DNA of 64,000 nt from Toxoplasma gondii ME49 (lineage: Eukaryota > Apicomplexa > Conoidasida > Eucoccidiorida > Sarcocystidae): NCBI RefSeq assembly GCF_000006565.2, contig NC_031472.1, positions 1,916,227 through 1,980,226 of the forward strand. Reading direction: 5' to 3'. The number at the start of each line of letters is the position of its first letter. Within the stretch, counting starts at the first letter, position 1. A program made the translations under genes and the position numbers. This document shows positions 10,401 to 37,669 of this stretch, one piece after another. Below the pieces are notes generated by a model, which was given only the letters and a program-made list of their open reading frames with translations, was not told the DNA's origin and did no database searches.

Positions 10401-10890
10401 ATTTCTTCCTCAGAAGAGAAACAAGTTCTTTTCCCTCCACGCCTCCGCCTCAGCAGGAATCTGGACGCAGTTCCCTTCTTCTCCATAACGGCCTGGTTCG
10501 GTGCGCCACGAAGCTGCTCCTCATTCTGCTCCCCGTCCGTCTCACGCAGCGCCCTCTTCTCTTCAACATTCCGTGTATCCTCCATCTCTCTGCTTTTTCT
10601 CGTCGCCACCCGCGTACTCTCCTACTTCCGAGTGTGTAGGAGCCTGACCGCCCCCGTCCACGCGTCGATCGATTCCGCCTCTTCATCGCTGTCGACTTCT
10701 CTCTCCTCTGGACAGCCCTCCTTCGACAGCCTGTCTCTCAGCTCTTTGCAGCCCCTATTCTCATCTAACGGTCATCCTTTCTGTCTCTCCTCTCTGTCTC
10801 TCCTTCCCTCCTTCCTTCCCTTTTCTCTGTTGCCATTCTCACCCTCCTTTCCGCTGGCTTCAACTGGCCTTTCTGTCTCTCTGTTTCGCG
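7473..10890. promoter_or_regulatory. Divergent intergenic region between phosphatase 4 and the tail-anchored protein gene
   Basis: 3.4 kb between two start codons pointing away from each other, so it must contain both promoters and 5' UTRs. I see no conserved coding sequence. It has many short purine- or pyrimidine-biased runs, including a long C/T-rich strand from about 10620 to 10890 just ahead of the plus-strand start codon. It also holds several TGCATGC-type words (near 8155, 8335, 8918-8925 and 9445), a motif known to be enriched upstream of apicomplexan genes. No TATA-type core promoter can be assigned. Confidence 0.45.
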
Positions 10891-13800: not shown

Positions 13801-15162
13801 ACGCTCTCGTCTTCCTCTTCTCTTTCTTCTGCCTCTGCGTCTCTTTGTTCCTCTTCTTCCGGCTTGCTGAGAGTCGCGGGAGGTGTACAGGGACGGAGAG
13901 ATCACGCTGCAGATGGGGCAGGCGGGGAGAAGGGAGACCCTTTGTTTGCGTCGGTCGTAGCGGGCGAGGCTGAGGAGGAAGCGTCTCTCGCAGGCAGACA
14001 TGCAGAGACCCCTCAGAGAGAAGGAGAGAGGGAGGGAAGCGAAGACATGGCGGAGGGAGGCATCAGCGAGTCTCCTGCTTCCGCAAGTGCTGCGTCGAAG
14101 AGAGGAGGTGGACTTTGTGACTTGTCTTCGTGGCTTGTCTCGTCGTTCTCCTTTTCTTCGCGTCGTCCTCCTCAGTCGCAAACGGGAGCGAGGCTTGCGT
14201 CTGGAACGAAGACGGTGTCTGCCTCTCTCGCCGCAGACTCGGTCGCAGACGAGAGAAACCAAGGAGCTGGCGAGAGAGGCCGAGCCGTCGGTCCTCGACT
14301 CTGGAGGGAAATCCTTCGCAGGGCGCTCACGCTCCTTCTTCTCCTCGGTCGGGTGCTCACCTCCTCGTACGACTCTCTCGCGGCTCATGGAGGCGTCCGC
14401 GGCGTTATCGCTTCTCTCGAAGAAGCAAAGGAAGAGAAAGAAGAAGTGAGAGAAGACGGGAGAGAAAACGATGGCAGCCGAAGGGGAAGCCGAGCGAGAG
14501 GAGACAGCACACAACAGAGCACGATCACTCGTAGCCAAGGAAGCGTGGAGAGGCCGTTCACGGAGACAGCGAGGGGACGCGAAAGTCGAGGGGATGGAAG
14601 AAAAGAGTTGGCTGGAAAGGGCAACCGACTGCTTGTGCAAACTGGACAGAGAGAAGCCGCGCGACCTCGATCAGCAGATGCTCAAGGTGTGTCTGTGGAC
14701 AGCCGAGTGAGCGACAGTTCGGGTGCGTCGCCGATGGGGAGACTCTCAGAGGCGGCTGCTCGACTATCCATGGAGAAAGGACGTTTCGCATGTCATCTTG
14801 TCTCTCGTATGGTTTGCGAAGCCGAGAGCCAGGTTTTCTCTGGGGGTGTTCTCTCTCTCCTTTTTGGGAGACGCCGAGAGGGAGAAGGTGAGAGGGAATC
14901 CGCAGCGAAAGGCGGAGCACGCGCCGAGCATGCAGCGGGGACGGCGGAAGTCAGGAAAGACTCGTGGATTCCAACGCGAGAAAAGGACCCGGGGAGTCTG
15001 GAGGAGAAAGCGAAAAGTGACGGACAAGCTGCGGCAACTGAAAGGTCTTTTTCCCTCACTTCTCCACTGTTCTTCATCGCTCTCCTCTCCTTTCTCGGAT
15101 TATTCTTCTTCTTAACTCTTGAGTCTCACGAAGACGACCTCGTAGACATCGACTTTATGTAA
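10891..15162 (+). CDS. Large Ser/Arg-rich hypothetical protein with a C-terminal membrane anchor
   Basis: Single open frame of 1423 codons with no intron needed. I recognise no catalytic or structural domain. The first 1100 or so residues are low-complexity Ser/Arg/Glu/Pro sequence typical of coccidian disordered regions. A hydrophobic stretch (ALTLLLLLGRVL) lies near residue 1148. The chain ends in a clear transmembrane segment (PLFFIALLSFLGLFFFL, about 1393-1411), then LESHEDDLVDIDFM, an acidic tail of only 14 residues. This is the layout of a tail-anchored or type II protein facing the cytosol. The ATG at 10891 was chosen as the first in frame, but the frame stays open for a while upstream, so an earlier start or a 5' exon is possible. 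The length of the frame and the sensible C-terminal anchor argue against a chance ORF. Confidence 0.6.
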   Translation: MPLLPQRNGPHLGALATESGSLGSQPAEKKGHASADTRTSFSRPQAASLADLPPAGRRVGSREHFSLSLSHSGGEAPIRRSAKANRPPTPPVQSALAREARPLLPSEDKKGRDVSPSPSSSSLASSSSPSLLVAAAVFSHPVHAAFASQLRAPSPRQASTRLSSSLGQVSPAASLSVSVSGGDAYAQDMSACRRSSVRSETFRVSAREAPPPPPHTQGPTRRASVSSPSRRRSGTPSYLNPTVASRQRSLQRSEERRGERFSRNRSPSLTREGPSRSSQIPLSSRPTFPPSSLTSSLRLHSVSATPGALPPLPPARFRGCRALEETEQRRVTGALQLQTVSCMRSSSSDRELTLGTDRGEVSRSLGGPAVRLAPRRALGEREETAECEERNAEGRGESRSRSEQRAEGENTKDGRRRAIREAGEEGEARSTRRSAELGGGREGRANAETGERRQVQPSVTRDSHTAKPRMSSSSAPSRGEDERCHFETPWALGPSSTPRRRSSASSSFSLYTSCSSLRATERESGEGESRSNRGLRSSASPQSVPRDSESRRQSQCLNTHTQCVSAPVSREEKQFLSAAARVSASSRPRADPPEARAGPLLEDPCARSFSSFGGTRSPSDLQRRSCAEFLLEASATDATANSKKKEEAAEEDLSSSSWLERDPLFRALSERAASTVRELPVDQLLADEAASFGAQNPTVSPRGGRSETGVAATGGDSPLFLSQQLSDGEAPMLTRTQRPDEEKRAREADELEKEVNRHEEETGARGSVGGQRLPQRGDNGGSAWSESNQTSLCPDVSRRCFFSLFSRQVDSAESAESERRGNVSCGDAHVEADAEESDETEAKTRRAGGEEERDQEDERGERKTQVLSRYPVSSSQARREPSRLHSSAVSRASVPSSSSSRVSKENAESSLSHAWPSSLPPPPKRGLKPEGLSSSTDRRASPSLIPKARPLGLARPATARERAGQARVASTLSSSSSLSSASASLCSSSSGLLRVAGGVQGRRDHAADGAGGEKGDPLFASVVAGEAEEEASLAGRHAETPQREGEREGSEDMAEGGISESPASASAASKRGGGLCDLSSWLVSSFSFSSRRPPQSQTGARLASGTKTVSASLAADSVADERNQGAGERGRAVGPRLWREILRRALTLLLLLGRVLTSSYDSLAAHGGVRGVIASLEEAKEEKEEVREDGRENDGSRRGSRARGDSTQQSTITRSQGSVERPFTETARGRESRGDGRKELAGKGNRLLVQTGQREAARPRSADAQGVSVDSRVSDSSGASPMGRLSEAAARLSMEKGRFACHLVSRMVCEAESQVFSGGVLSLLFGRRREGEGERESAAKGGARAEHAAGTAEVRKDSWIPTREKDPGSLEEKAKSDGQAAATERSFSLTSPLFFIALLSFLGLFFFLTLESHEDDLVDIDFM

Positions 15163-19780: not shown

Positions 19781-22700
19781 AAAGAGAGAGGTTTATATAA
19801 ATAAATATAAATATATGGAAATATATATATATATATATATATATAAATATTTATACGAACATGAGCACACGTATATACAGATCGGTATGTGTCCTGGCGT
19901 TAGGATGTTGATTCGGAGAGGAGGGACGAGGTCCGAACGCACAGACGATGAAAGCGCCAGCACCGTCTCAGTGAGGGAGTATGTGAAAGGGCATTGCCGC
20001 GTTAAAGAAAGGAGAGTTTTCAGAAGCGAATCAACACTTCGGCGAGCCTCTGGCATTTGCATTTTTGCGTCGTCGTTGCATGCATTGCTTTGTCTTTTAT
20101 ATAAGACGCATACCACGTCCGGGCTGTACAGGTCGACCAAGCGCCGCAAGGCCTCGCTGAGGGAGTTGTCGCCAGACCAAGAAGCCTTCGACTCTACATC
20201 ATCTTTGTCAAATCGCGCTCTTCCCCTTTGTTCACTCGCCTCGCCTCTCTCGCCTGTCTTCTCTGCCTTCTCGTCTCCTCTCCGGCATCCCCCTGTCTCT
20301 GCTGCAGCTTCTCTGGACGCTTTTCCACAGTCTCCTCGAGTCTCCCCTCCAACGTCTCCTTCGGTGTCTTCTCTGCATGTCCCTCTGGAGTCTCCGTTTG
20401 TGTCTCTCCGCGGTGTCTCTGCGTCTCTTGTCTCTCGTTCTCCTCGCGTTCGAGACCCGTCCGCATTCGTCGCGTCCTCGTCTGGTAAGGAGGTTTTCTC
20501 CTGCGTCTTTTTCTCGCTTCTGTCTCCGTCGCGAGAAGCCGAAGGCTGTTCCTCTTCCTCGTCTCTTCTCTTTCTTTCCTGGACCGGCGTCTCCCGAGTC
20601 GCCGCGTCGGAGGAAGAAAGGCTCACCGCGGCAGCGCTCTTTGACAGCTTCCGGTTGCGGGTGTCTGTCCACCAGCCGTGGACCAGGAGGCGCCGCGGGA
20701 GAGGCAGGCCCACACCGAGCAACAGCGCAGGGAGCAAAACTCCGTGGAAGCGGAGAATGTCTTTCCCCAACACCTGCAGAGAGGGTGGCCTGGAGTCCGC
20801 AAGAAACGAAGGGGAAATTGAGAAGCAAGGCGAGTGGAGGACGTGAGGCATGGAAACAGCAGGGAGGAGGAAGACAGGAAAAGCAAGATAGAACGGCGCA
20901 CAGACAGAAGCGTGGAGAGAGAAGCAGAAGAAGCAGAAGGAGAAACAGAACGAAACATAGGAGAGAAAGAAAGAAACATACAAGGACATCTAGAGAGATA
21001 AAAAGACAGAATAAAGACAGTAATACATACATACACACATACATAGATATTATATACGTATATATATATATATATATGAAGAGATAGAGAGAGAAATGGG
21101 GACGAGAGACTACATGGAGTCGGAAGTAAAAAGTGCAGGGCATGCTTCAAAGACCCAAGTTGGGAGAGACACATCCGTTTCCACTGCGTTGGTTCACCGT
21201 TTACGTTTGTGACAGGTCGACAAAGAAAGCTGGGATGGTGCCTTTGAACAGCGACCGAATCTGCTCACCAGAGAGCGCGAAAGCGACGCGAATTTACGTC
21301 GGGGAAACCTGCGGCTGTGAGATATCCGACGACGGCATCAAACCACACATACACCGCATTTCGCTCAGACCGGCAAGAAGAAGAGCGAGACGAAGACGGG
21401 AAGGCGAAGGGAGAAGGGAGTGAGAGAAAATCATCGAAGTCGACGGGAGGCACCCGCAGACCCCAAACTCCCACCGTGTTTCCACTCTGGCGCCTCCGCT
21501 CCGTCCGACGAAGGATCTCCTCCCTCGACACTGAAGAATCGACAGCGGAGTCGGATCGAAGAGAGCATGGCGAGAGATGCGACTGTGGAGAAGAAACTGG
21601 TGAAGAAGAATACGGCCAAGACGCAGGCGACGACGAAGACGACGAAGCAGCCAACGAGTGAAGGAGAGGCGAAACTGTATACGTCGAACTGGGTCGAGAG
21701 ATGGCGAGGTCGCGGAGGCCGCCATGTTCTACGAAGGCTTTCACTTCTTCCAGGCGGCTCGCGGGGGCGATCGAGAAGAGGCGAGGCGACGCGTAGAGCC
21801 TAGAAGGAACGTGACAGGAAGAAGAAAGGGTGACTTTGGAAAGGTGAAGCCAGCAGAGGTCACAGAGGAGGATCCACGGGCGCATAAACAGAAAAACAGA
21901 TTTCTTCTCGAAGACACAACGCGGCTGAGAGACGTCTCTGTCTGCTCTTCGAAGCGGAGGAGACATCTGCGGGTGAAACGACTCAGAGCCTCCAGGGGAA
22001 CCACTGCCTGCGGGAACGCGATGCCGCGGTTGCTGGGAGAGTCCGTGTCTGGACCGCCCGGCTTCCCTTACTGTAGGAGAGCGTCTTTGAAATGCGTCAG
22101 ACGGAAAAAGTAAAACTCGGCGCCTCCTCCTTCCCCTGCTGGATCTTCGCTTTCTTCCTTTTCCTCCTGCTTCTCTCCTCGGTGTTCCTCTCCGTCTTCG
22201 CTTCCTTGACTCTCTCGCCTTCTTCGCCGGTCAAGACAAGCTGCCTGAGAAGCCTCTCCGCCGCGTCTCTCTCTCTCTGGCAGAGCAGCCGAAAGGGGAG
22301 AAGAAGACACAGAAAGAGAAGAAGGAGACAGAGAAAGAGAAGAAGACAGAGAAGAAGACGAGACGGAAGAAGAGGCCGGGCCAGGAAGAGACGCGGAGAC
22401 GGGGGAACGAGTGCCCCGCGAAACGTGCATACCCCACGCTTGGTCTTCTTCTTCTTCTCCAACGAAGTTGAACGCCTCCTGTCTCCCTCGCGAAGCGGAG
22501 GCGGAGGACAAGGCCGAAGGCAAAGGGGAAGCAGCCGCTTTGTAGATCAGGCCTTTCTCTTCCAGCATTCTCCAGAGTGTCCATACAGCCCGTTCGTGCG
22601 CGCTTCGCGGTGTTGCTCGTTTCTTCGCATCGCCGCCATCTCTCCAGAGTCTGCGAATTTCGCCGCTTTTGTCTCTTTCCTCACCCAGTCGTTCTGTCTC

Positions 22701-24962
22701 CGGAGCCTCCTCTCTGCATCTCCCCACACTTCTCTCTGCGTCCTCGCGCCTCTCCACCTTCTCAACAGAATCAGAATCGGCAGAAGCGAAAGAAGAAGCT
22801 GAAGAAGAGGAAGGAGAGCGGGAAGTTGAAGAAGAGAAAGAAGAGAAAGAAAAGAAAGAAGACGGTTCATCGCGGGTGCTGGTCCGAAAGAAGGGCAATG
22901 ACCCATCCGGGTGCTGAAGGATGTGGAGACGCCTGAGCATCGCGCAGTTGTAGGCGGCAATCGAGTTGACAAATGCTTCAACTGAGTCTTGAGAAAAAGC
23001 AGACGAAAAGCAAGGCGAAAACGGAGATACTGGCGACGCAGATGTCAGCACAGAAGGCGTACTCAGATCTGGAGACGCATGCGGCTTTGCGAGACTTTCA
23101 TCTGTCTCTCCGCTGTCTGCATTCTTTTCTTCTTCCCCCTTTTTCTCTGTCTGTTTCCAGTAGGCTCTCCACGCGGCCTCAGCAGCGCGCACAACTTTCC
23201 CACCGTGTTCGTCTGCTCCTGTCAAAATCATGCATCCTCCTTCTCTCTCCCTTGCTCCTCCCTCTCGCTCTTCTTTCTCTCCTTCCTTCAGTCGTCTTGC
23301 GTCGGGGCTCTTTTCTCCTGCGCTCTCCGCTGTGCTCGCCTCGGTTGCTTCTGTCTCTCTGTGTGTCTCTCGCTGTGTCTCTGTCTCTCTGTCTGTCTCT
23401 GTCTCTGTCTCTGTGTGCTCGCCTCCGTCCCCCGCGTCCTCTCCTCGCGCCGGCTCTGCTGTTCGCAGAGGGGGGCCTGCTGGTTCCTCCGAACGCGAAA
23501 GCGGCGAGTCGTAGAAGCCTTGCCGAGAGCGAGCGTACCGCACAAGCGCGTCTGCCAACACACACGAATACGCATGTCCCAGATGCATGCGGGCATTGCT
23601 GTAGAAAAGCGGACAGGTCACAAGTCGGTAGTCGCCCCAGGCTGCGTCCCCGGTCTCCTTCACTTCGTTTTTGTCCTCTCCTCGCTCGTGACCTCGTTCT
23701 CGTTCTCTCTCTCTTCCTCTCCGTTGCGCTTCCTCTGGGTCGCTCCCTCGTCCTCCCGGAGCTTCCCTGTGGAGGGAGAGCGCCCAAGCTGCACTCGGAG
23801 AGCCGCCAGAGGCAGAGGAGCGCGAGCAAAGGACGGAGTGCCGCGGGTGAGACGACGAAGACGACGAAGACGACGAAGACGACGAGCGAAGAACGGAGAG
23901 GAGTGAGACAGGCAGAGCTGCAGACGACTTCGGCCTCGGCTGTGACAGAGGCTGTGACAGAGACTGTGACGGGAGAGGAGAGCAGTGGCCGGAGGAAAGC
24001 GAGTGAGAGGATGAGGGCGACTGGAAGACCAACGGCGTCTCGGAAGACGTCTGTCGACTGGCAGTCCGCAGAATACGGCGAAGCGAAGAAGGAAGAGGCG
24101 AGAGGGAAAGCGTCGACTCCGGCGAACACTGTCCTCGCGGGCAAGGGACGGTGAATGCACACAGGGCTGGCGAAGAGGAGAGAAAGGAATATCGGGAAGG
24201 ACACCAGGAATGCGTCCTGTGGACAAAGAGAGCATTTCCAGTGGAGGACGCCCAACGCGGCGGTCTTTGTAGAGTGCTCTGGAGCGGCCGAAGGAGACAG
24301 CTGTCTCCGCAGGGAGACGCAGGCAGCTCTTGAGAAAACACCCACGAGCGCCGTTCCGGTATGTTTCGCGTCTTCCTCAGAGAGACGCGTTTCTTTCTTC
24401 TCTTTCCTTTTTTGTCTGCAATTTTCAACTTTGCACCACAGCCACCAAGAGCTGCACAAGGGGGCAGACCGGCTAGATGCCTCCAGGCCTCTTCCGGCAG
24501 CCACCGGTCCGTCTGCGCCAACTTCACACTGTCTGTTCCCTCTTCTTTTTTCGCTCTTCTTGCCAGACTTTGGCCAGTGCAGCGGCCGCCTCTCCTCTCC
24601 CTTCCTCTCCCCTTTGCTGTCCCTCCTGCAGCAGCTGTTCCGTTTCGTCGCTTCGGTGTAAAGCGAGCTTTCAGGCCGCTTGAGACCCAAGGAGAGCAAC
24701 ACAAGGCGCCGAGCGGCCCGGCGCCTCGTTGGGGCGTCGGCTGCCAGTTGGGCGCGGAGACCAGGCGAGGAGACACGCCCGCAGGCCGCGCCTCCAGAGA
24801 GAAGCGCGGAGCCTCTGCGGCGACGAACAAGGCGGGCAGCGCACCGAGGAAGGAGACGAAGACGCACAGGCGCAACCAGCTGCTTGTCTGCGTCTGCAGA
24901 TGAGCTCTGAGCAGGAGCAGCTTGAGCAGAGAAGTCCAGAAGAATGCGAGAGGCAAATCCAT
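17723..24962 (-). CDS. Methionyl-tRNA synthetase, organellar (probably apicoplast), five exons
   Basis: Class I aminoacyl-tRNA synthetase that charges tRNA(Met) with methionine. Exons: 24962-22072, 21799-21269, 20789-20114, 19425-18625, 18109-17723, in frame to about 1761 residues. Landmarks are the HIGH-type HLGH in NARMHLGHAYS (near 458), LTGADEHGGK (near 583), YVWFDAVVGYLTA (near 1113), VLGKDILRFHG (about 1147), and KLSKS in place of KMSKS (1188-1192), followed by the anticodon-binding helices. Bacterial enzymes have 500-680 residues; the excess is low-complexity insertion. The N-terminus has a hydrophobic signal segment (RLCVFVSFLGALPALFVAAEA) and then a long basic, Ser/Arg-rich stretch, which is the bipartite leader that sends nuclear-encoded proteins to the apicoplast. 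The Cys residues of the zinc knuckle that usually follow GLIYK are absent. The C-terminal 30 or so residues may end differently if a further intron exists. Confidence 0.92.
18287..18365. repeat. (TA)n followed by (GA)n microsatellite in a synthetase intron
   Basis: About 14 TA dinucleotides run straight into about 11 GA dinucleotides, inside intron 4 (18110-18624) of the methionyl-tRNA synthetase gene. Confidence 0.95.
19570..19855. repeat. Cluster of (TA)n tracts in a synthetase intron
   Basis: Three TA-rich tracts (about 19575-19632, 19738-19775, 19797-19852) within intron 3 (19426-20113) of the methionyl-tRNA synthetase gene. Confidence 0.9.
21044..21082. repeat. (TA)n microsatellite in a synthetase intron
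   Basis: TA-rich tract in intron 2 (20790-21268) of the methionyl-tRNA synthetase gene. Confidence 0.9.
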
Positions 24963-27010
24963 TTTCCAGACTGACGCGCCAGCCGAGCTACGACAGGAGA
25001 GGCCTCATGGCGGCAACGAGTGGAGAAACGGGAGGCGAGAGAGAACGGCAAGACGTGGAGGATGCGGGACCGAGATCGATTCTCAAACCAAAGACGACAA
25101 GAAGCAGCGAGAGTGTCTCAGGCCGTTGAGAAGAAGAATAGATGGAGACAGTCCTGACGAAGAAGCACACACGAAGGGGAGAGGCGGAGGAAACAGGCGA
25201 AGGAGAGCTGCAGGAGAAAACAGGTCATCTGCGAGAGACGAGACGAGGCCACCCACAGGAGCGGAGGGCGAAACGAGAGGAGACCGAAAGTCAAGGCAGT
25301 CGACCCAAGGAGGAAAGACAGCAAGCCGAGCGACTCTGTCTTGGCATTGAGCCTCAGAGACAGGCTCTCCCGACGGGTCTCGCCAGTGTGAAGCTCACTT
25401 TCACCTCAAAAAACTGGCCTTTATCGATTCGCAGACGTCGCCGTTCATCCCCAGTGAAGTGGAAGCATTTGTGTCGCCTCCTTCGTCTCTCCTCCGACCC
25501 TTTCAAGGACGCCTCCAGGAAAAGTCTCTTTACACTTTCCTGCCGGTGTGAGACGCAGACTCAGTCCCTTTCGCTCGCGGCGCTCTGCAGCGCCTCGGCT
25601 CGGGTGTCCACACACCGCCTGGCATTCGGACGGGGATCGCGCGAGTCGAGACGCTTCGCGGCGTCTTCTGGAACAGACAGAAACACAGAAACCCGTTGCG
25701 GGGACGGAGTTTTTCCCCAGCATGCACTCGAAACGAGGAAGGCAAGTCGTGGTGGCCTCCGCGCCGCAGCTGGCACGGCAGCGAAACTGCGCCGCGGTTC
25801 CGGTGCCTGTACACCGGCTCCTCAGAACAGGAGACAGTTTCGGAGTGCGAACTTTTTTCCGACGGCCGAAAAGGCTTTTCTCATTCAGAGGCTTTTTCTC
25901 GCTGGCTGTGTGTGGAGGGAGGACCCACGCGGGCGGAACGGCAAAAACGCTCTCGCCGCGAGGGTGTGAGCGATCGGCGGTCTTTTTTTCGCGAACTTGT
26001 CTGTCCAGGTTTTCTTCGGTTGTCCTTCAAAGGTCCTGCCTCTTCGTCCGTGAAAGGCTTTCTTCTTCTTAGAGAGAGAGAGAACTGTGCGGCCGAAGCG
26101 ACGAGTGTGTGTAAAAGGTTTACGGCTTCCAAGTATGCGCTTTTCGCGAGCTGCTGAGCGCGTGCATGCATGAGAAGACAAACGGGAAAAAGGACCGCCA
26201 AACCACACACAAGGTTGTGTGTTTGACGGACTCACCGAGACAGGGGCTAGGCACTCGTTTCCTGAAAAGCGAAAACATGAGCAAATCCACTTGAAAAAGT
26301 CTTTTTTCGACACAGACACTCCTGGATGCCGCTGCTTTCGCTTCCAGTGCGTGGCGCCGGGAAGGCGAAACTGGGAAGACTCCCAGACTGTCCGCCGACT
26401 GAGGTGTACATACACCCAAAAGGTTGCCTTTTCGCGTTGTGAAAGCGAGAAAAGTCTAGTTTTTGACCAGGCCAAAAGCGGTATTTACGGGGTCGGAAAC
26501 GCGGGTCAAGATCTCTTGTGTTTTTTCCTAGTTTCCTCGAGTCTAAGGCCTGCATAGATGAACTCCTTTCCTGGCGGCCGGCCGTCCCCCCTGTCGAAAG
26601 CCACGGTCGGCCGTTTGCTTGCTCGATGTACGTCGAGGAACAGCCCCCTCTGTTTGTCGCGAAGCCTCAACTCTCTCTCTCTCGTGTTTCTCCCGCTCTT
26701 CCGAAGCCTGCTTTGCGCGGTCTCCTTTCCTGTCGCTCCACCTGCTTCGTTTTTCCTCTTCGTCTCTACTTTCTGCGTAGCTGCCTGTCGGTGTTTCCTC
26801 TCTTCCTCGGCACTCGGTTCGAGTTCCACCCTGTAGGACGAAGAGTCAGCAGTCCTTCACTGGAGAACGGGTCTCTCCTCGTCCCTTTCTCTCTGCATTC
26901 TCCTCCAGAGGTCTTGGTCTCTCTCATCTTGGTCGCCTCCCCTCTCCTCAGTCTGCCGCTTGTCTTCGGCCGGTGAGGTCTCGTTCTCTCTCCGTTCGAG
27001 CGTTTCCACC
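24963..27010. promoter_or_regulatory. Divergent promoter region between the synthetase and the large coiled-coil gene
   Basis: 2 kb between two outward-facing start codons. A 275-codon plus-strand frame (25142-25969) and several smaller ones overlap on both strands, but none shows a family, a signal or frame-consistent splice sites, so I treat the stretch as promoters plus 5' UTRs. The sequence just before the plus-strand ATG is pyrimidine-rich and ends in CCACCATG, a good translation-start context. A TGCATG word lies at 26164. Confidence 0.45.
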
Positions 27011-30000
27011 ATGTGGTTGACGCGCGTCGTTGCTCACGTCCTCAGAGATGACTCTGTCACCCCGACGAACAGGGCGTCGGATTCGGCTGCAGAGTCTTCG
27101 ACTTTCCCGGCTGCTGGCTTGTCTTCTCAACAGCCGAAGGCTGCGGGCACCACCCTTCCCTGTCCTCTTCTGCCTCCCTCCTCGCTCTCGTCTTCTCCTC
27201 TTCCTTGTTTTTCGCGGCCTTCGGCTGCCGCCGCAAACGCCCGACCTTCTGTCCAGACACTCGGGGGAGGACAAGGACATGTGGACCAGATAGCGGAGCG
27301 GCGAGAAGAGGAAACGAGATGGAGAGAGGAGAACGATGGCGGACGAGCCTGGTCGGTCGACGACTTTGAGGTTGATGAGAGTCCCTGCACTCGACTGGAA
27401 GGACATACGGACTTTGTGCCCTTCTCTCCTCAGAGACAAGACGAAAGCCAAGCTGCACCTGAACGCGTTCCATCTCCCTCTGCGTCTCTTCCACCTTCTT
27501 CTTCTCCTCTCCCTTCTTCTTCTCTTCTCCCTTCTTCTTCTCCTCTCCCTTCTTCTTCTTCCGTCCCCGCAGCCTCTGCGTCTCTTCCACCTTCGTTTGC
27601 TGCTCTTCCCTGTCCTTCTGTTCCTGCTTCAGCTTCTTCAGTTCAGACGAGTTCTGCGGCGGCACTGTGGGGTTGGGAGGATGAAGACTTTGAGATTCCG
27701 GGAGAAGAAGATCGCAGAGCCGAGGGCGCTCTCAGGCCACTGAAGGAGACACCTTCTCCGGCTTCCACGCTGCCCCTCGCGGGGACAGAAGGCCTGGCGG
27801 GGGCCTCACGCCCGCGAGCGGACTGCGCGTTTCTCGGCAAGTCGTTGTCTGGAGAGTCTGTTGGCCTTTCTCCGGTTTCTCTGGATGAAGCCAGAAAGTT
27901 CAACTCAGACAGCTCAGACGAACTGCGAGTGCACCGGAACGAACTGGAAGAAGAGACAGGAAGAGATCCACCTCTTCGCGGAGCCGCATCTCCAGGAGGA
28001 GGGCCTCCCGTTTCCTCTTTCAAGCAAGAAGAGAAGGAGCGCGACTCTGCATGGAGTGCAGATTTCGATTTCGACCTTGACGGTGCTAATACGCCGGAAG
28101 GACATATCGACGGGCGTTCGTCTCCTCTGCATGTGGAGAATGCAAATGTTAACTCTTCGACGCCTCTTGTGACTTCTCCCCCGTCTCCTTCTGCTCAACC
28201 GCCTCCTTTCGCTGCCGCATCGGTTCTTCCCTTTTGTCCGCCTCCAGTCATCCCTTCGTCTGTGTCTCCCTCTGCTCCCTCTTCTTTGTCTCGCTCTCTT
28301 CCTTCTTCTTTCCCTTCTTCTTTCCCTTCTCCTTCTTTTCCTTCTTCTTCTTTTCCTTCTTCTTCTGTTCCGTCTTTTTCTCTGTCTCCGTCTGTTCTTC
28401 CTTCTGTGAATCCGCAGCCGTCTGCTTCTGTCTCTACGGTGGACTTGGGGTCTGGCTGGCACGGGGATTTCGAGTTTGAAGATTCTGCGCCCGGCGAGGC
28501 TCTGGCAGGCGCAGGCGAAGAAGCGAGAGAGAACAGAGTCGCCAACTGGAACGGCGACACCGCTGTGGATGCACCCGAGGACGGCGGCCTTATGCCGGCA
28601 GAGGACAGTGCAGACGTGCCTGGCGCCGAGCGCGTTGGGGACAGACTTGCGCAGAGTGCGCCTCTTTCTTTGTCGGAGTCGTTTGAGAAGAAGGAGAAGC
28701 TTTTCTCGTTTTCGAATTCTCCTGAAGGCGCCAGTCTGGACACCATATTGGCTCCTGCCTCTCTTCAGCCAGTGAACTCCGAGAGAGGACGTTCCACGCG
28801 AGAAGAGAGAGGCGAAAGAACCGAAGCAGGACCAGGCGTTGATATGAACGGAATGATAAAAAACGTGACGTCTCCGTCTCCCTCAGTCGCACTGTCTTCC
28901 GACATCTCTCCTTCCTGGAACGTTGATTTCGACATCGAGGCGACGGATGTTCAAGCGGTCCAACAGTCTCCTTCAGAAGACCGAGAGAACGAGGGAGAGG
29001 AGGGAGGGAAAAGGAGAGTGGAAGACGACAGACGTTCTGCGCGTCCTCAGGCCGAGGCTGTTCAAGGACCTAGTGCCTGGAACGATGATTTCGACATCGA
29101 GGCGACGGGCGTTCAAGCGGTGCAACAGTCTCCTTCAGAAGACCGAGAGAACGAGGGAGAGGAGGGAAGGAAAAGGAGAGTGGACGACGACAGACGTTCT
29201 GCGCGTCCTCAGGCCGAGGTTGTTCAAGGACCTAGTGCCTGGAACGATGATTTCGACATCGAGGCGACGGGCGTTCAAGCGGTGCAACAGTCTCCTTCAG
29301 AAGACCGAGAAGACGAGGGAGAGGAGGGAAGGAAAAGGAGAGTGGACGACGACAGACGTTCTGCGCGTCCTCAGGCCGAGGCTGTTCAAGGACCTAGTGC
29401 CTGGAACGATGATTTCGACATCGAGGCGACGGGCGTTCAAGCGGTGCAACAGTCTCCTTCAGAAGGCCGAGAAGACGAGGGAGAGGAGGGAGGGAAAAGG
29501 AGAGTGGACGACGACAGACGTTCTGCGCGTCCTCAGGCCGAGGCTGTTCAAGGACCTAGTGCCTGGAACGATGATTTCGACATCGAGGCGACGGGCGTTC
29601 AAGCGGTGCAACAGTCTCCTTCAGAAGGCCGAGAAGACGAGGGAGAGGAGGGAAGGAAAAGGAGAGTGGAAGACGACAGACGTTCTGCGCGTCCTCAGGC
29701 CGAGGCTGTTCAAGGACCTAGTGCCTGGAACGATGATTTCGACATCGAGGCGACGGGCGTTCAAGCGGTGCAACAGTCTCCTTCAGAAGACCGAGAAGAC
29801 GAGGGAGAGGAGGGAGGGAAAAGGAGAGTGGACGACGACAGACGTTCTGCGCGTCCTCAGGCCGAGGCTGTTCAAGGACCTAGTGCCTGGAACGATGATT
29901 TCGACATCGAGGCGACGGGCGTTCAAGCGGTGCAACAGTCTCCTTCAGAAGGCCGAGAAGACGAGGGAGAGGAGGGAGGGGAAAGGAGAGTGGACGACGA

Positions 30001-33000
30001 CAGACGTTCTGCGCGTCCTCAGGCCGAGGCTGTTCAAGGACCTAGTGCCTGGAACGATGATTTCGACATCGAGGCGACGGGCGTTCAAGCGGTGCAACAG
30101 TCTCCTTCAGAAGGCCGAGAAGACGAGGGAGAGGAGGGAGGGAAAAGGAGAGTGGAAGACGACAGACGTTCTGCGCGTCCTCAGGCCGAGGCTGTTCAAG
30201 GACCTAGTGTCTGGAACGATGATTTCGACATCGAGGCGACGGGCGTTCAAGCGGTACACCAGTCTCCTTCAGCAGACCGAGAAGAAGGAGAGGGAGGAGG
30301 AGAGAAGCGGGATGGAGTCGATGGACTGGAGGACGGCGTTGGAGAGAGGCAAAGAGAAGAAGGAAGGGATGAAGAAGACGAGAAGAGAATCGCTTTGGAC
30401 GGCCGTTTTGTCTCTGTCTTCGCGGGTGTCTCTCCTGAGTGGGACGTCGACTTTGATATGTCGGATTCTGAGGAGCAACGCAAAGAGACAACAGACGTTG
30501 GCGAAGAAAAGGTGGATGCAGGGCCCCCAGAAAACAGAGCGGAAGGTATGCAAGGCTGTTCAGAGAGAGGGGGAAGCTTTTCGGCAAGAGACAACCAAGA
30601 ACGCACAGAAGATCACACTGTTTCCTTCGGCCGCAGAGGCATCGCCGCGAGCCTTCCGATCAGTGGGGACCAGTTCTCTTGTCTTCAACGAGGAGCGGGA
30701 GGAGACAAGGAGACAGCAACCGAGAGAGAAGAGAGGAACAGAGAAGATGCGCCCTCCTTTCTTGAAGGAGGACTCGGAGATGACGAGACAGAGAGAGCGA
30801 AGCAAGCGAGTGAGTTGCCCGCGTCTCTTTGCTCTTTCGCCGCAGCACGCAGGGACGCGAGCCGCGCAGAGAAGACAGGCGCAAAGGGGGAGGAAGCCAG
30901 AGAGAAAGAAGTCAGTTTCGGTGAAGACAGTGGGCTATCCAGACAGGCGGACATGGACAGTTCGCAGGAATCCGTCAACGAAGGAGAGCCGCTACACGAC
31001 AGAGCCGCAGGGGAGGACGCAGAAGGCGGGGGAGCGGAGGCGATCGACGGAGACAGAGAGGGAGACGAGAAGGAGACTCGAGACGTCGAGGACGAAGGAG
31101 AGACGCGTCGTTCTTCCTCTTTCGCTGAACAAACTGGAAATGAAAGAACCGAGATGAGAACCAGACATGGGGGTGACGAGGGCTGGACCTCGAAGTCGAA
31201 TCGGTTCGCTTTTGCCTGCCCTCGGTTTTCCAAATCTGATGTCTGCTGTTCTCCCCAGGCTCGGCTATCTTTGCCTGAACAGTCCCTAGGCTCCTCTCCG
31301 TCGTCGCCCATTTCTGTCACAAATGATGTCTATGCTCTCTTCGATTCGTCTGCATCTCCTCTGCATGCGGGAGAGTTATCTTCTCTTCCCGGCGCGGTCT
31401 GGGCCTCAGAGCGCCTATTGACTGCTCCGGCAGAAACAGGTCCCTCGGCCTCCTCAGCCTGCCTCTCCGTTTCTTCTTGTGGTCCAGGCGAAATGTCTCC
31501 GACAGCGGGTACGATGAGACACGACGCGGAAGAGAGAGAACGCAGGAGAGTGGAGGAAGAGAAGGAGAGAGAGAGACAGGAAGAAGAAGAGAGAGAACGC
31601 AGGAGAGTGGAGGAAGAGAAGGCGAGAGAGAGACAGGAAGAAGAAGAGAGAGAACGCAGGAGAGTGGAGGAAGAGAAGGAGAGAGAGAGACAGGAAGAAG
31701 AAGAGAGAGAACGCAGGAGGGTGGAGGAAGAGAAGGCGAGACAGAGAGAGGAAGAAGAAGAGAGAGAACGCAGGAGAGTGGAGGAAGAGAAGGAGAGAGA
31801 GAGACAGGAAGAAGAAGAGAGAGAACGCAGGAGAGTGGAGGAAGAGAAGGAGCGAGAGAGACAGGAAGAAGAAGAGAGAGAACGCAGGAGAGTGGAGGAA
31901 GAGAAGGCGAGACAGAGAGAGGAAGAAGAAGAGAGAGAACGCAGGAGAGTGGAGGAAGAGAAGGAGAGAGAGAGACAGGAAGAAGAAGAGAGAGAACGCA
32001 GGAGAGTGGAGGAAGAGAAGGCGAGACAGAGAGAGGAAGAAGAAGAGAGAGAACGCAGGAGAGTGGAGGAAGAGAAGGCGAGACAGAGAGAGGAAGAAGA
32101 AGAGAGAGAACGCAGGAGAGTGGAGGAAGAGAAGGCGAGACAGAGACAGGAAGAAGAAGGGAGAGAAAGACAAAGACGAGAGGAGAGAGAAGAGAGAGAG
32201 AGAGAATTTCAACAGCGCGAGGCGGAGCTGAAGACACGGCTAGTAGAGCTTCAGAGAGAGCACGCAGAATCTGTTGAAACGTGGATGAAGGAGCAAGGAG
32301 AACGAGAAAGGCACTTGACTCAGGATTGGGAGAGGAAATTGCATGCGTTTGAAGAGCAGAGTCGGACTGTGTTGCTCCAAGAGAGATCTCGTCACAAGCA
32401 GCTGGAGGAGGAAAATGCAGAGCTGAAAATGAGAATTTCCCAGCTGTCGCGCAATTTCGCGTCTCTCCGCGAGCAGCTTGTGGCCTCAGAAAAAGAACGC
32501 GAAATGCAGAGACGCGAGGAAGAAGAGAAGAAGGCTGGCGAGGAGAGAGACAGGCAGAAGAGGGAGGAGACTCGGAAAGAGAAAGAAGCGTTCCTGCTTC
32601 TTGTAGAGCGCGACAGAGAAGAGCTGAAGAAGTTCGTCGTTCCTGCTCTCTCGGAGCTGCAAGAAGACTTCGAAATGTGGAGGCAGCAATTGGAAGAAAA
32701 AGTCACAGAGACAGCGGAGAGGCGGAGAAGAGCAGCAGAGGAACACGCGCGTCTGGAGGGAGCGTTGTTGCATGCAGAGGAAGAACTCGCCCGGGAGAGA
32801 AGAGAACACAAGGACCAGATCGTCCGCATGTCCAGGGAAAAAGAAGGTAGGGGAAAACCACAGAAAGACGGAAGGGCAAGAAGACAAGGTATAGGGAGAA
32901 AAAAGAGAAGAAAAGGGGAGGAATGGAGTGTACGGAGAATCTCGACCAGAAGAAAGGGTGGTGTATAGAGGCGAGTGCAGACACAAAGAAGATCCATTGA

Positions 33001-36000
33001 GCTTCTCCTGACCTCTCATTTCCCTCCGCGTGGAAGTGACAACGTGTGACGCTCCAAAGGCCTATGGTACTCCCGGTCCCCTCAGAGCCGGAATGGGAGG
33101 CAGTGCCTCAAAAAAAAAGGTGTGCGCCCAGATTCAGACTTGCAGGGTTCTGTAAAAAAACAACGTGTCAGTCTGCAGACATATAAATAAAAAAATATAC
33201 ATAAATAAAAAATATGTATATAAATATATATAAATATATATATGTATATATATGTGCATGCGTCGTGATCCTCTCCTGTCTCGACACGTGTGTGTGTGTG
33301 AGACTGTGTTTCCGAGTGGTATCTCTGTGAAGCGTTTTCAGTATACGGAGTTAGGAATTTTCGTCTGAAAGGGGACGGGGAAGTCGACATCGGGAACTGG
33401 ATTTTCGGGGATTGACCGGGTTGTCAGTGCACAGCAAGTCGTGGGGAAACGTTCGTTGTGTAGCCCACTGTGCAAATCTGAGATTGAAAGATCAAGATGC
33501 CTCGCTTCTGCCATTCTCTTTCGCAGACGAGCTGCAGCGAGAGCGCGCCGAGCGCAGGCGCCTCGCGAGGGAGCTGCAGACGATTCTGCGCATGCAACGC
33601 CAATCGGAGAGTGAGACAGGAAGGCCGCCAAGCGGTGTCTCTCTTGGACGCACTCGCGCCCACGCAAGGCGCGAACGGTTCTTCTCACATCTCTCAAGAA
33701 GCTGGGCGTCCTGCGACCTCAGGAGTACAGATTTGTGCATAGGGACGCATACAGAGACATGTTTCTGCGTTGTCTCCCGTCTGCGTGTGTCTCGTTCTGT
33801 GAGAAGAAAGAAGACATACAGGTTCATGTGAAGAAATGCCAAAGATCTACACAGGTGCATGAATATGTAGATACATGAGGAGATCCGAGTGAATATGTTT
33901 GCACATGTTGGTTTGTTTTCCTGGTTTTGTGCATGCGAACATGTACTACGCGGATGCAGGGAGTGAAGAGGAAGAAGCTGCTGAGATGGGGCAGAGCAGC
34001 GAGGCAATCGAAGCGAGGTATTTTGCGGCGGAACTGCAGAGGTGCAGGTGCGTGTTCTCTGCAAGATGGAACGGGGAACGGCGATGTGAAGGACGAAAGA
34101 AAAGTCACAGTGAAATAAAGAGGAGAAATCAGATCTGATGCAGACCGGCGCGTACTGAAGGACATAGCGACAGCGAGAGGGCAGAGGCGAAGGAGGAGAA
34201 CAAAGAGGAGGAGAGACGGCAGTCACACGCCAGATGTCCACTGTGTGTTTCTACAGATCTTCGATGGAAGTTTGGCATGCCGACAAGGCAGAACTTGTTC
34301 GTCGTCACGAGGAGCGCGAGAGACGATTGGCGGTAGGATTTTCTCGTCTCGTTGTTTACGCGTTGTTTCTGAAACCAGCGCTTTTGAACTTTTTTCTGGG
34401 TCTCTCTTGCCCCGTTGTTTTTCGGGTCATCTGTCCAGGGCGACGTGACACCTCTCTTTTTTCGTTATTCTCTTCTCTTCGTCGAGTTTCTCGTCTGTTT
34501 CTGCCCCCTGTCGGATGCACAGCTGTCAGTGCTTGATCTCTCCGTCCTCGTCTGCACTGCTTCTTTCCAGCTGGCCGCGACACAGAGACGGTCTTTCTCT
34601 CTGGAACGTTCGTCTGGTCGTCTCTCTGCCGGACCGGTGTTCAGATTTGCTTTTGTGTTTCGGAGTCTCCGAAAGCGACTTCTTGCCTAGGGCGGCTGCG
34701 CGCTCGATCGCGCGTCCCTCCCTTCCTTCGTGTAGACGCAGAAACGACCAGGCCGCTGGCACAGAGTGTCGAACCTAGTCTTGCTTACGTCTGTTCAATA
34801 CGGGGGTGAGCTGCGTGTGAACGTCCCTGTGGCGAGGCTCCTCCGCACCGCACTGAGGCTGAAAATCCTTCCGATGTCCTTCGCCTTTTTCGCAGGAAGA
34901 AATCCAGTCTCTGGCGGCGGCTGGCGCGGAGGAACGCGCGAATTGCGATAAACTGTTGAACGCAAACAGAGCCTTGGCACAGTGAGGCCCCTGCCTGCAA
35001 AGTGACGTGGTTTTTTCTCTTCTCTGTCGATTTGTAGCTCTTCTTGTCTGTCGATGTCTTCTGTTCCATGTCAGCTTTTTCTCTTTCTTACTTGGAGTCG
35101 CTCGCGACCAAGTTCCTTTCTTGCTCCTCCTTTCTGCTCCGCTCTGCCCAAAAAGTTCATGCTTTTACGTTCGCTTCTGTTCCCTTTCCTCGAATGTGTT
35201 TCCTCTTTTGTCTTGCGTCTCGGTGCATTTGTCACGGTTCCCCTGGCGCGGCTTCTGTTAATCTCGCGCAGCTCGACGACGCTCTGCGTTTCGGAGTCCT
35301 CTTTGTGGCATTTCAGCTTTTTCTCCGTTTTTTCGCTTTGGTCACTCGTTCCGCGCTGTGTTCATGTCTCCGTCTCGTGACTCTTCAGAGAGCTGCATGC
35401 AGTGCGGAGAGAAATGGAGAAAGTCGAAGCCACACGCGAGGAGGTGGAATCAAAGGGAGCTCTCGAGGACGAACGGCAGCGCGAACGCCTGAAGCAGCAA
35501 ATCTTCGAGTTGCAGTGTGACCTTCAGCAGCGGGAGAAAGAAAATGAACATCTTCGCATGCAGTTGCGTCTCCTTGAAGAGGAGCCGGTCACTTCTCCCC
35601 TTCCTGTCTCGGTTGTTTCTCGCCAGCCGCAGCCTCGCGAACCGCAGACGTCGCCTCAAGCTTTTCTTGGGGCGCTTTCGGGACCTCCGAAACCCACCCC
35701 ACACTTGTCTACGGCCCCTGTCTCTTCCCGTGACTCCTCGCCTATCTCCTTGGCGCCGGCAGGAAGTTCCCGTTCGGGTGTCACGGGCGAGTCCCTGCAT
35801 GACCCGCAACAGAGAGAACAAACGCCCTTCGATCCTGCTCTGTCTCCGCCTCAACAAGAAATATCACCGCAGGAGACCCCTCAGAGGGCCAAGGAGTCGT
35901 GGACCCCAGGCGGTCCCTCCAGCCGGAGAGCCTTCCCTGGTGCATCGTTCGATCGCCTCGAAACCCCCCAAGAAGCTAGGAGGGCGGCAGCGGAGAGAGA

Positions 36001-37669
36001 GGAAGAAGCGCGAAAAACGCCAAGAGAAGAGGCTCTGGGCCCCGCGGCTTCCGCCGTGAGTGTCGCCTCTGCAGCTGCCGCAGTCGCAACGTCGTTCGCG
36101 CGCTCGGCCTTCACCGGCGCCTTCTTTGGGCGAGAGTCCACGAGCCTGGAAGATCTGCAGAAGCACTTGAAGATGCAAAGAGAGAACGAAGAGCGGGCGA
36201 GGAGCGAAAGAGAACAAAGAGAACGAGAAGAAAGAGAACAACGCAGAGGTGATTCTCAAGGAGCAGTGAGAAGAGAAACAGTAAAAACGGGATGGGAGGA
36301 AGACTTTGACTTCGACGAGATCGAAGATTCCGTTGCCAGAGAGGAAGTCGAAGTCATTTCTGCTGCCCCCCAGTGGAGCCCAAAGGCGGGGGCGGAGGCC
36401 CTTTCGCGCCGTCCTCCAGTGTCTCTCCAAACTCCAGTTGTCTGTGTAGGTGATGGAGGTACGCCGGGGGTTCCAAGTTCCCCGGATCGACACGCAGGCG
36501 TTTCAGAGTCACATTTGCAGCCGTCTTCGTCGCTTTCTTCTTCCAGCCAGAACTCACTCGCCGTGCAAGCGTCCTCTGTCCGTCACAATATGCTTCGTCC
36601 TCCGGAACAGAGAGGAGAGACAAGCGACCGGGTGCACGGGCGCATTCAGGGCCAACCGGGGAAGCGTTTGTCGACCCCGGAGACCCCGGGAGGGTGGGGC
36701 AAGGATGGAGATTTCGATTTCTTCGAGGACGAGTCTCCCCCAACAAAAGAAGGAGTGACGTCGAGTCTCAAACAACTCTCAGGGACCTCTTCTTCGCTTC
36801 GTGCCTCTCTGCCTCAAAACCGTGAAGGTCAGTCCCTGTCTCCGTCTCTGGACCCCTCTGCTGTGCGCTGTGGGGGGGCCCTGGCGCCTGGTAGCCCCCC
36901 GAGGATCCCGTTGGCCGCATCCGCCTCTCCGATATCGTCTTCTGGGTGTCTACCTTCTTCCTTGGAGCCTCAGCGGTGCCAGGAACAGCGATATGAGAGC
37001 GGGATCCAGATTTCCGCTGGACAGGACCCTCTGTTTGCATGCAGCGTGGGTGTGAGCGCGGACGCGCAGTCCCCAGTGGAAGTGAAATGCGAACATGAAA
37101 GGCGAGAGACTTTCTTTTTTCAAGAGACGAGTCGGGCGCCCCTCTCTCCGGAGCTTCCGTCTCGCGCGAGCCGAGAGGAAACGCCGTGTCTCCACCCCAC
37201 AGAGCTGCTCACTTCCCAAGCATACAGCTCGGGCCGGGCGGTTCCGGCCCCGCAGGTGTCTATGCACCTCGCCGCGGGAGGCGTCCACGGGGGAGCTCTT
37301 CCTCCAGCTTCAGCTCCTGCGCGTGAGCAAACGTGTGGTCGAGTTCGAGGTTGTCCCGGTGAAGGTAGCGCCGGCGTATCGCTGAGAGGAGAGAGCGACA
37401 GAGCGCATGCAGTTCCCGGTGTGCAGCGGGAGCCTGCGGATATGCCAAATTCCTCTCGCTCTCAATTGCCTCCTGCGACCTTACAGGCAAAGTCGATGAC
37501 GGGGACTGAATTGCATGCAAAGGAACTCGATTTGACGGCGTTTGGCTCTCGGCAGCCGCGACGGCTGGTGATCGCAGGTCCGGGGGTCGCCCGTGGGGTC
37601 CTTGACCCGCCGCGGAGCCGACAGGAAGCAGTCCAGGATATCGACTTGGAAGATTTTCTCAACAGCTGA
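27011..37669 (+). CDS. Very large coiled-coil protein with an acidic W-x3-F motif array, six exons
   Basis: Exons: 27011-32846, 33527-33610, 33960-34041, 34257-34332, 34896-34981, 35389-37669. All five junctions are GT-AG and in phase, giving about 2814 residues. Residues 1-1450 or so are disordered and carry repeated short acidic motifs of the form W-x-x-D-F-[DE]-[FIL]. Examples are WEDEDFEIP, WSADFDFDLD and WHGDFEFED, then eight tandem copies of WNDDFDIEA on a 54-residue repeat (about 636-1067), then WDVDFDMSD. A Glu/Arg coiled coil spans about 1505 to 2117 and continues smoothly through all four small exons. The last 550 residues are disordered again, with WEEDFDFDE (near 2356) and WGKDGDFDFFED (near 2490), and the chain ends in LEDFLNS. 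The layout resembles golgins or tethers with acidic Trp motifs that bind coat subunits; that role is inference. No enzyme domain is visible. The ATG at 27011 was chosen for its CCACC context. Confidence 0.85.
28916..30290 (+). repeat. 162-bp coding tandem repeat, eight full copies plus a partial ninth
   Basis: The TGG codon that opens each unit recurs exactly every 162 bases from 28916 to 30212, which is 54 codons per unit. Each unit encodes WNDDFDIEATGVQAVQQSPS, then an acidic stretch, KRRV-[ED]-DDRRSARPQAE and VQGPSA. Copies differ by only a few substitutions (D/N, G/D, K/E, A/V), which suggests recent expansion or gene conversion. The ninth copy diverges after about 25 codons. There are no indels between units. 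Confidence 0.97.
31529..32165 (+). repeat. 60-bp coding minisatellite, eleven copies, coiled-coil repeat
   Basis: Eleven copies of a 20-residue unit of the type ERERRRVEEEK-[EA]-R-[EQ]-R-[QE]-EEE lie within exon 1 of the large coiled-coil gene. The high Glu/Arg content and near-heptad spacing predict a long single or coiled helix. Subtypes (ERER, ARER, ARQR) are shuffled along the array, as expected from unequal exchange. The same bases are also open for long stretches in two minus-strand frames; these are by-products of the repeat. Confidence 0.95.
33180..33256. repeat. (TA)n / AAATA microsatellite in a large coiled-coil gene intron
   Basis: TA-rich tract with AAATAAA steps in intron 1 (32847-33526) of the large coiled-coil gene. 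Confidence 0.9.

Follow-up and report, generated by a model that had tools for sequence, protein, structure and literature searches.

Introduction

Several groups of described proteins bear on the gene analyzed here, which lies on the forward strand at 27011..37669 of a 64,000-nucleotide stretch of Toxoplasma gondii ME49 DNA (contig NC_031472.1, C6:1916227-1980226; the whole stretch is called the window below). The closest are the golgins, long coiled-coil proteins with a C-terminal Golgi anchor that is either a GTPase-binding domain or a transmembrane segment. Some of them carry a Trp at the extreme N-terminus in the sequence M-S-W-L/F; this Trp matters in golgin-84 and GMAP-210 (PMC5267433), and a survey found the golgin-84 motif to be kept outside animals, whereas those of GMAP-210 and TMF were not (PMC5840792). 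The second group comprises ligands that bind the mu-homology domain of delta-COP, a subunit of coat protein complex I (COPI). Their class has been worded as Wx(1-6)[WF] (PMC11441981) and is listed in ELM as LIG_deltaCOP1_diTrp_1 (PMC7145657). In the Dsl1 lasso, ArfGAP1/Gcs1, Cex1 and insect FAM114A, a Trp stands 1-6 residues from a Trp or Phe in an acidic stretch (PMC7145657, PMC6737914, PMC4868844, PMC8015235, PMC11441981). Gcs1 carries WxxF (PMC6737914), for Cex1 it was the authors who remarked on a likeness to the motif, and mutation of WDDW in Drosophila FAM114A reduced COPI binding (PMC11441981). Coccidia also have lineage-specific Golgi coiled-coil proteins, namely TgUlp1 and TgGlp1 (PMC10746232) and GLP1-4 (PMC11559087), and at the micropore of T. 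gondii TgEps15L and KAE pair an aromatic motif with the ear domain of a coat (PMC10105704).

The protein encoded in the window shares features with each of these groups and differs from each in others. Like TMF and the M-S-W golgins, it has a long coiled coil; its extreme N-terminal Trp (M-W-L in place of M-S-W-L/F) recalls theirs, and as in TMF, where about 400 disordered residues precede about 500 residues of coil, a disordered-looking segment stands before the coil. In contrast to golgins, this segment runs to about 1480 acidic residues and has 14 Trp motifs inside it; no homology at the sequence level was seen, and neither a Pfam domain nor a clear transmembrane anchor was found. With the delta-COP ligands it has the acidic Trp motif in common, but the cited excerpts on Gcs1, Cex1 and FAM114A name one motif each, whereas the T. 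gondii protein has 16, of which a tandem array accounts for nine, and has no ArfGAP, SCYL or FAM114A domain. It resembles TgUlp1, TgGlp1 and GLP2-4 (PMC10746232, PMC11559087) in being known so far from coccidia only, with few or no known domains besides the coiled coil; the positions of their coils, however, do not match residues 1736-2125 of our protein, and the cited excerpts mention no Trp motif. TgEps15L and KAE use WxxF, of which this protein has none. By analogy, its mode of action would come closest to that of a golgin, here one that bears coat hooks within its sequence, and it is a candidate golgin only. Our best reading, to which we give a probability of about 0.45, is that of a coccidian golgin-like tether that holds the COPI coat multivalently.

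Results and discussion

An array of acidic tryptophan motifs in a single gene

The 2816-residue protein contains 16 motifs of the form W-x(3-5)-F-[DE], 14 before a helical rod and two after it, starting at residues 114, 222, 348, 483, 636, 690, 744, 798, 852, 906, 960, 1014, 1068, 1144, 2359 and 2493. The gap between W and F is three residues in 13 of the 16 motifs, four in two and five in one. When the whole protein was shuffled 1000 times and searched with the expression W.{2,5}F[DE], the mean was 0.61 motifs and the maximum 4, as against the 16 observed. This bears out an earlier sequence-only reading of the window, which had counted about 16 acidic W-x3-F motifs in all, distributed over the two sides of a coiled coil. 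Since nine of the motifs (residues 636-1068, mostly WNDDFDIEA) sit in one 162-bp (54-residue) tandem array at 28914..30300 (8.6 copies, 97% matches), there are only 8 independent motif slots. Asp and Glu make up 47% of the 12 residues after W at these slots and 33% in the repeats, compared with 20% in the whole arm. The surroundings of the motifs were judged to be disordered from their composition and, for one motif, also from an AlphaFold2 model.

At the DNA level, the 65.28-Mb genome has 17 matches to a strict pattern for W-x-x-D-F-[DE]-phi-[DE], 12 of which were in this gene, and one match to the reversed control; of the other five places, two were in frames open for about 50 codons on each side and three had stops nearby. 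A laxer pattern matched 86 places, 13 of them in this gene, against 47 for the control. Because of these counts and their controls, we conclude that the motif array is a property of one T. gondii gene, within the reach of exon-wise DNA patterns.

Conservation of the motif in orthologues

Homologue searches returned proteins from T. gondii strains, Neospora caninum and Besnoitia besnoiti only, and none from Cystoisospora; two of them, aimed at more distant coccidia, each scored 7974-7986 candidates within a limited range of protein lengths, which does not imply absence from Cystoisospora, Sarcocystis, Eimeria, Plasmodium or elsewhere. Against the last third of the T. gondii protein, the N. caninum orthologue showed 50% identity (full coverage) and that of B. 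besnoiti 37% (62% coverage). Both orthologues contain nine motifs by the expression used above, and a predicted, partial protein of another T. gondii strain, P0001, contains four; the corresponding shuffle means were 0.53, 0.63 and 0.23, with maxima of 4, 4 and 2. The motif is thus kept in Neospora and Besnoitia far above shuffles, a point on which the sequence-only reading had staked itself.

For the comparison of positions with Neospora we used the 8 independent slots and a ninth, in which T. gondii has the degenerate WNGDTAVD (residue 513, 28547..28570) and Neospora the intact WNVDFAVE. In global alignments that were not anchored on W, W paired with W at all nine slots at about 45% identity (278 of 616, 156 of 367 and 298 of 579 residues identical in the aligned stretches). 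The motifs at residues 114, 222 (with W220-x-W222), 348 and 483 (27350..28480) correspond to W137, W250/W252, W368 and W528 of Neospora, and WDVDFDMS at residue 1144 (30440..30463) pairs with W860. Behind the rod, WEEDFDFDE at residue 2359 (36293..36316) is identical in Neospora, and WGKDGDFDFFEDE at residue 2493 (36695..36727) has the counterpart WGNDQDFDFSEDE. One Neospora partner, WNTDLDLE, has L where F is expected. Trp residues outside motifs paired at positions 104 and 1392 and did not pair at 1464, 2228 and 2386. A comparison anchored on W gave 51 of 81 identical residues in the nine-residue cores and 201 of 432 in the flanks, a difference that the anchoring inflates. The W-W pairing supports conservation of the slots without being decisive, since the substitution matrix itself rewards W pairs.

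Helical rod and conserved ends

The rod comprises about 620 residues and appears to consist of two parts. At its start (residues 1503-1735, 31517..32215) is a 19-residue E/R-rich repeat, encoded by a 57-bp tandem array at 31529-32205; in these first approximately 233 residues, windows are 84-88% charged with 4-5% LIVMF, and at best 12-25% of the a/d positions are LIVMFA. The following approximately 390 residues (1736-2125, 32216..35593, exons 1-6) have LIVMFA at 31-62% of the a/d positions and are strongly conserved at EAIEARYFAAELQRCR and EEIQSLAAAGAEERA. From this simple a/d count, we read the first part as of the single-alpha-helix type and the second as a heptad-type coiled coil, which matches golgins in having a long coil. 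By this count, the coiled coil of about 600 residues in the sequence-only reading shrinks to about 390; in view of the E/R repeat, with its 4-5% LIVMF, we rejected a coiled coil for the whole rod.

The same reading had seen nothing else in the protein that looked conserved, which proved to be wrong. The N-terminus MWLTRVVAHVLRDDSVTPTN (27011..27070), with Trp at position 2, is identical at 15 of 20 residues in the three species. A predicted Ala/Ser helix at residues 2275-2303, which includes ASAVSVASAAAAVATSFARSAFTGAFF (36041..36127), overlaps the best conserved non-repetitive window (residues 2281-2340, 58% identical across the three species), and the C-terminus IDLEDFLNS (37640..37666) is identical in the window protein, P0001, P0002, P0003, P0005 and P0006. 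In an AlphaFold2 model built from four sequences (mean predicted local distance difference test score, pLDDT, 61.7), the Ala/Ser segment was predicted as a helix with block pLDDT below 60. A charged helix at residues 2310-2347 (36146..36259) had block pLDDT of 80-87, falling to 62 at its end, and the W motif at residue 2359 that follows it was without secondary structure.

These conserved parts also bear on a role outside coats, in which the aromatic residues would act as 'stickers' in an acidic arm, either in a nuclear activation-type region or in a cytoskeletal scaffold or condensate protein. In its favor, acidic activation domains combine acidic residues with W, F and I/L, and E/R rods occur in structural proteins. 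What speaks indirectly against it is that a single ordered motif (W, then F between two acidic residues, then a hydrophobic residue) recurs in fixed positions and that the N- and C-terminal ends are conserved as well. We consider such a role unlikely.

Databases name the orthologues P0001, P0002, P0003 (in UniRef), P0005 and P0006 'non-specific serine/threonine protein kinase'. P0001, P0002 and P0003 matched no kinase model in NCBIfam (E up to 1) and no Pfam family (E up to 10), and for this reason we discarded the proposal that the protein is a kinase, which has next to no chance of being correct.

delta-COP as the candidate partner of the motifs

All 16 T. gondii motifs, with gaps of three to five residues, and W220-x-W222 fit Wx(1-6)[WF], and their surroundings are acidic, as in the delta-COP ligands. 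W-x-W is present once in each of the three species, in corresponding slots. The sequence-only reading had taken the protein for a coat or adaptor ligand; in spacing, W-x-W and acidic context the motifs fit the delta-COP class better than the AP-2-ear or kinesin patterns, which supports that reading in part, with delta-COP as a putative partner.

In a competing explanation, the protein is an adaptor ligand in endocytosis or trans-Golgi network traffic, and its motifs bind the appendage of an adaptor protein (AP) complex, for example that of KAE, an alpha-ear protein of the micropore. The ear of KAE binds TgEps15L via WxxF, and coiled-coil proteins have been found at the micropore (PMC10105704). 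The genome has ear-type matches (PF02883) over the cut-off at two loci, one on C13 and one on C10. The pattern counts speak against it: the alpha-ear spacing W-x2-F-x-[DE] occurred in none of the three species, and the single W-x2-F was in Neospora; patterns for the gamma-ear, NPF and the clathrin box were absent from all three, and DP[FW] and FxDxF were found once each, in Besnoitia only. By these counts in the three species, we dismissed AP-2 ear, gamma-ear, clathrin-box, EH (NPF) and kinesin-light-chain W-acidic motifs, in the forms of the patterns that were counted. An adaptor ligand is, in our estimate, distinctly unlikely.

Spacing is also what would speak for a docking function like that of Pex5, whose W-x-x-x-F motifs bind the N-domain of Pex14, at peroxisome-like bodies. 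TgPex5 has been described with three WxxxF motifs (PMC6162456), 13 of our 16 motifs have this spacing, and a Pex14_N match in the genome (C14:3723125-3723217, 30.5 bits) was over the curated cut-off, with a weak match to solved Pex14 (E 0.002). The remaining three motifs deviate; two of them, at residues 114 and 2493, have a spacing other than x3 in Neospora as well, W-x-W recurs, and no TPR or other Pfam domain was found in the orthologues. We give this proposal a slim chance. As a side observation, the Pex14_N match sits in a genome in which the presence of Pex14 has been called disputed (PMC6162456).

For the COPI tether, a receptor domain can be pointed to. T. gondii delta-COP is encoded at C3, approximately 410347-416400, with its mu-homology domain spread over several exons; the locus was found with an Arabidopsis query, and the peptide was joined from our readings of the downstream exons. 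Compared with solved mu-homology domains, the joined peptide matched 4o8q with E 4.7e-25 and the yeast structures 5fk0 and 5fjw, which are complexes with Trp peptides, with 6.2e-10 and 1.4e-8. Tagged T. gondii delta-COP has been reported at the Golgi, near the COG complex (PMC10746232). The T. gondii subunit keeps its mu-homology domain despite what a survey states on most apicomplexans (PMC6357402).

A proposed golgin-like COPI tether

From the architecture, the conservation of the motif and the receptor domain in the genome, all three of which were observed, we infer binding, place, direction and mechanism as follows. A helical rod of about 90 nm (a length estimated from residue counts), made of the single-helix segment and the coiled coil, would be preceded by a long disordered acidic arm and followed by a shorter one. 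Through their Wx(1-6)[WF] motifs, the arms would engage the mu-homology domain of delta-COP; each contact would be weak and their sum strong, and COPI coat or COPI vesicles would in this way be captured or concentrated at the Golgi. For the predicted Ala/Ser helix close to the C-terminus, possible binding partners are membrane and a small GTPase. A further extension, which we would rather bet against, is a 'coat brush' in cyst-forming coccidia, which are without most conserved golgins: many delta-COP hooks on the disordered arms of one rod-shaped tether, in a number governed by a minisatellite that changes fast. Species and strains could then differ in their avidity for COPI coat.

A number of results weigh against the COPI tether. 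On the golgin side, P0001, P0002 and P0003 have no Pfam domain (E up to 10) and hence neither GRIP nor TMF. The highest 19-residue hydropathy was 1.58 and no clear transmembrane segment was seen, so that by Pfam and hydropathy we found no golgin-type C-terminal anchor. M-W-L is identical in the three species, and is a short match to M-S-W that is shifted by one. Hydrophobic moments of the N-terminal and Ala/Ser segments were no better than those of shuffles (P 0.22-0.51). T. gondii is reported to possess one or more conventional golgins, among them CASP (PMC11559087), which makes the need for a replacement incomplete. On the coat side, the Pfam mu-homology search matched three other loci only and not the T. 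gondii delta-COP locus, most apicomplexans, according to the survey, have delta subunits in which the human subunit's conserved domain is missing (PMC6357402), and the Pex14 pattern is matched by 13 of the 16 motifs too.

The pairing of slots with Besnoitia weighs in the same direction. Only residues 222, 348, 2359 and 2493 pair with W motifs there, and two of these four partners are altered, WEEDVLEVG being without F and WEDDDEDW having a second W. The partner of residue 636, WIVAVDLEE, lacks F, that of residue 114 is a W without a motif, and residues 483 and 513 had no partner; this unanchored alignment did not uphold the W-anchored Besnoitia pairs for residues 114 and 483. Besnoitia's own motifs include WAFDDDFDIES, WDVDFDLED, WNDDFDIES, WSDDFDIEE and WGVEFDLEP. 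The motif thus seems to have been retained as a type, with gain and loss in place, and such turnover argues that the motif is used as such. We kept the odds for the COPI tether despite the weaker pairing, because they rest on the Besnoitia motif count, which was unchanged. The probability left over from the readings named above belongs to partners that we have not listed.

Coccidia-restricted coiled-coil proteins of the Golgi have already been reported, so that another one would be no new kind; the multivalent Trp arms would be a new feature. If the protein binds coats multivalently, through a motif that is defined and can be mutated, the organization of Golgi traffic in these parasites becomes directly testable. 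Among the matches listed in our literature search, no paper was on this protein by its title or the start of its abstract, a search that covered neither the ToxoDB gene number nor supplementary lists and so does not prove the protein undescribed.

Gene model, repeat variation and neighboring frames

The coding region is a single spliced frame from the ATG at 27011 to the stop ending at 37669, with six exons (27011-32846, 33527-33610, 33960-34047, 34257-34332, 34896-34981 and 35389-37669). All five introns are GT-AG, and all five exon joins are the same as in P0001, which is itself predicted and partial and is the basis of the support for the joins. The join of exon 3 was set with this protein, in which ARYFAAELQRCRSSMEVWH spans the join. 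The last 1072 residues of the window protein are 98% identical to a T. gondii TgCatPRC2 entry.

Both coding minisatellites seem to vary between strains. The unit RRVEEEK of the 57-bp array (31529-32205) occurs 11 times in the window protein, four times in TgCatPRC2, at least three times in a partial CAST protein and not at all in a shorter FOU fragment, and a marker of the 54-residue unit occurs eight times in the window protein and at least once in the partial TgCatPRC2 protein; the counts in other strains are lower bounds, since these proteins are incomplete. Among the three species, the marker string of the 54-residue repeat was found in T. gondii only, being absent from the Neospora and Besnoitia proteins. 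The repeat could serve as a natural motif-number series for the avidity between a coat and a tether.

Elsewhere in the window, a frame at 22068-25004 on the opposite strand, upstream of the gene, contains a methionyl-tRNA-synthetase piece (PF09334). Frames at 5896-6801 and 61267-62169, both on the reverse strand, contain pieces of a calcineurin-like phosphoesterase (PF00149) and a prolyl oligopeptidase (PF00326), respectively. An open frame of 1504 codons at 10648-15162 on the forward strand matched no Pfam family with an E cut-off of 0.01.

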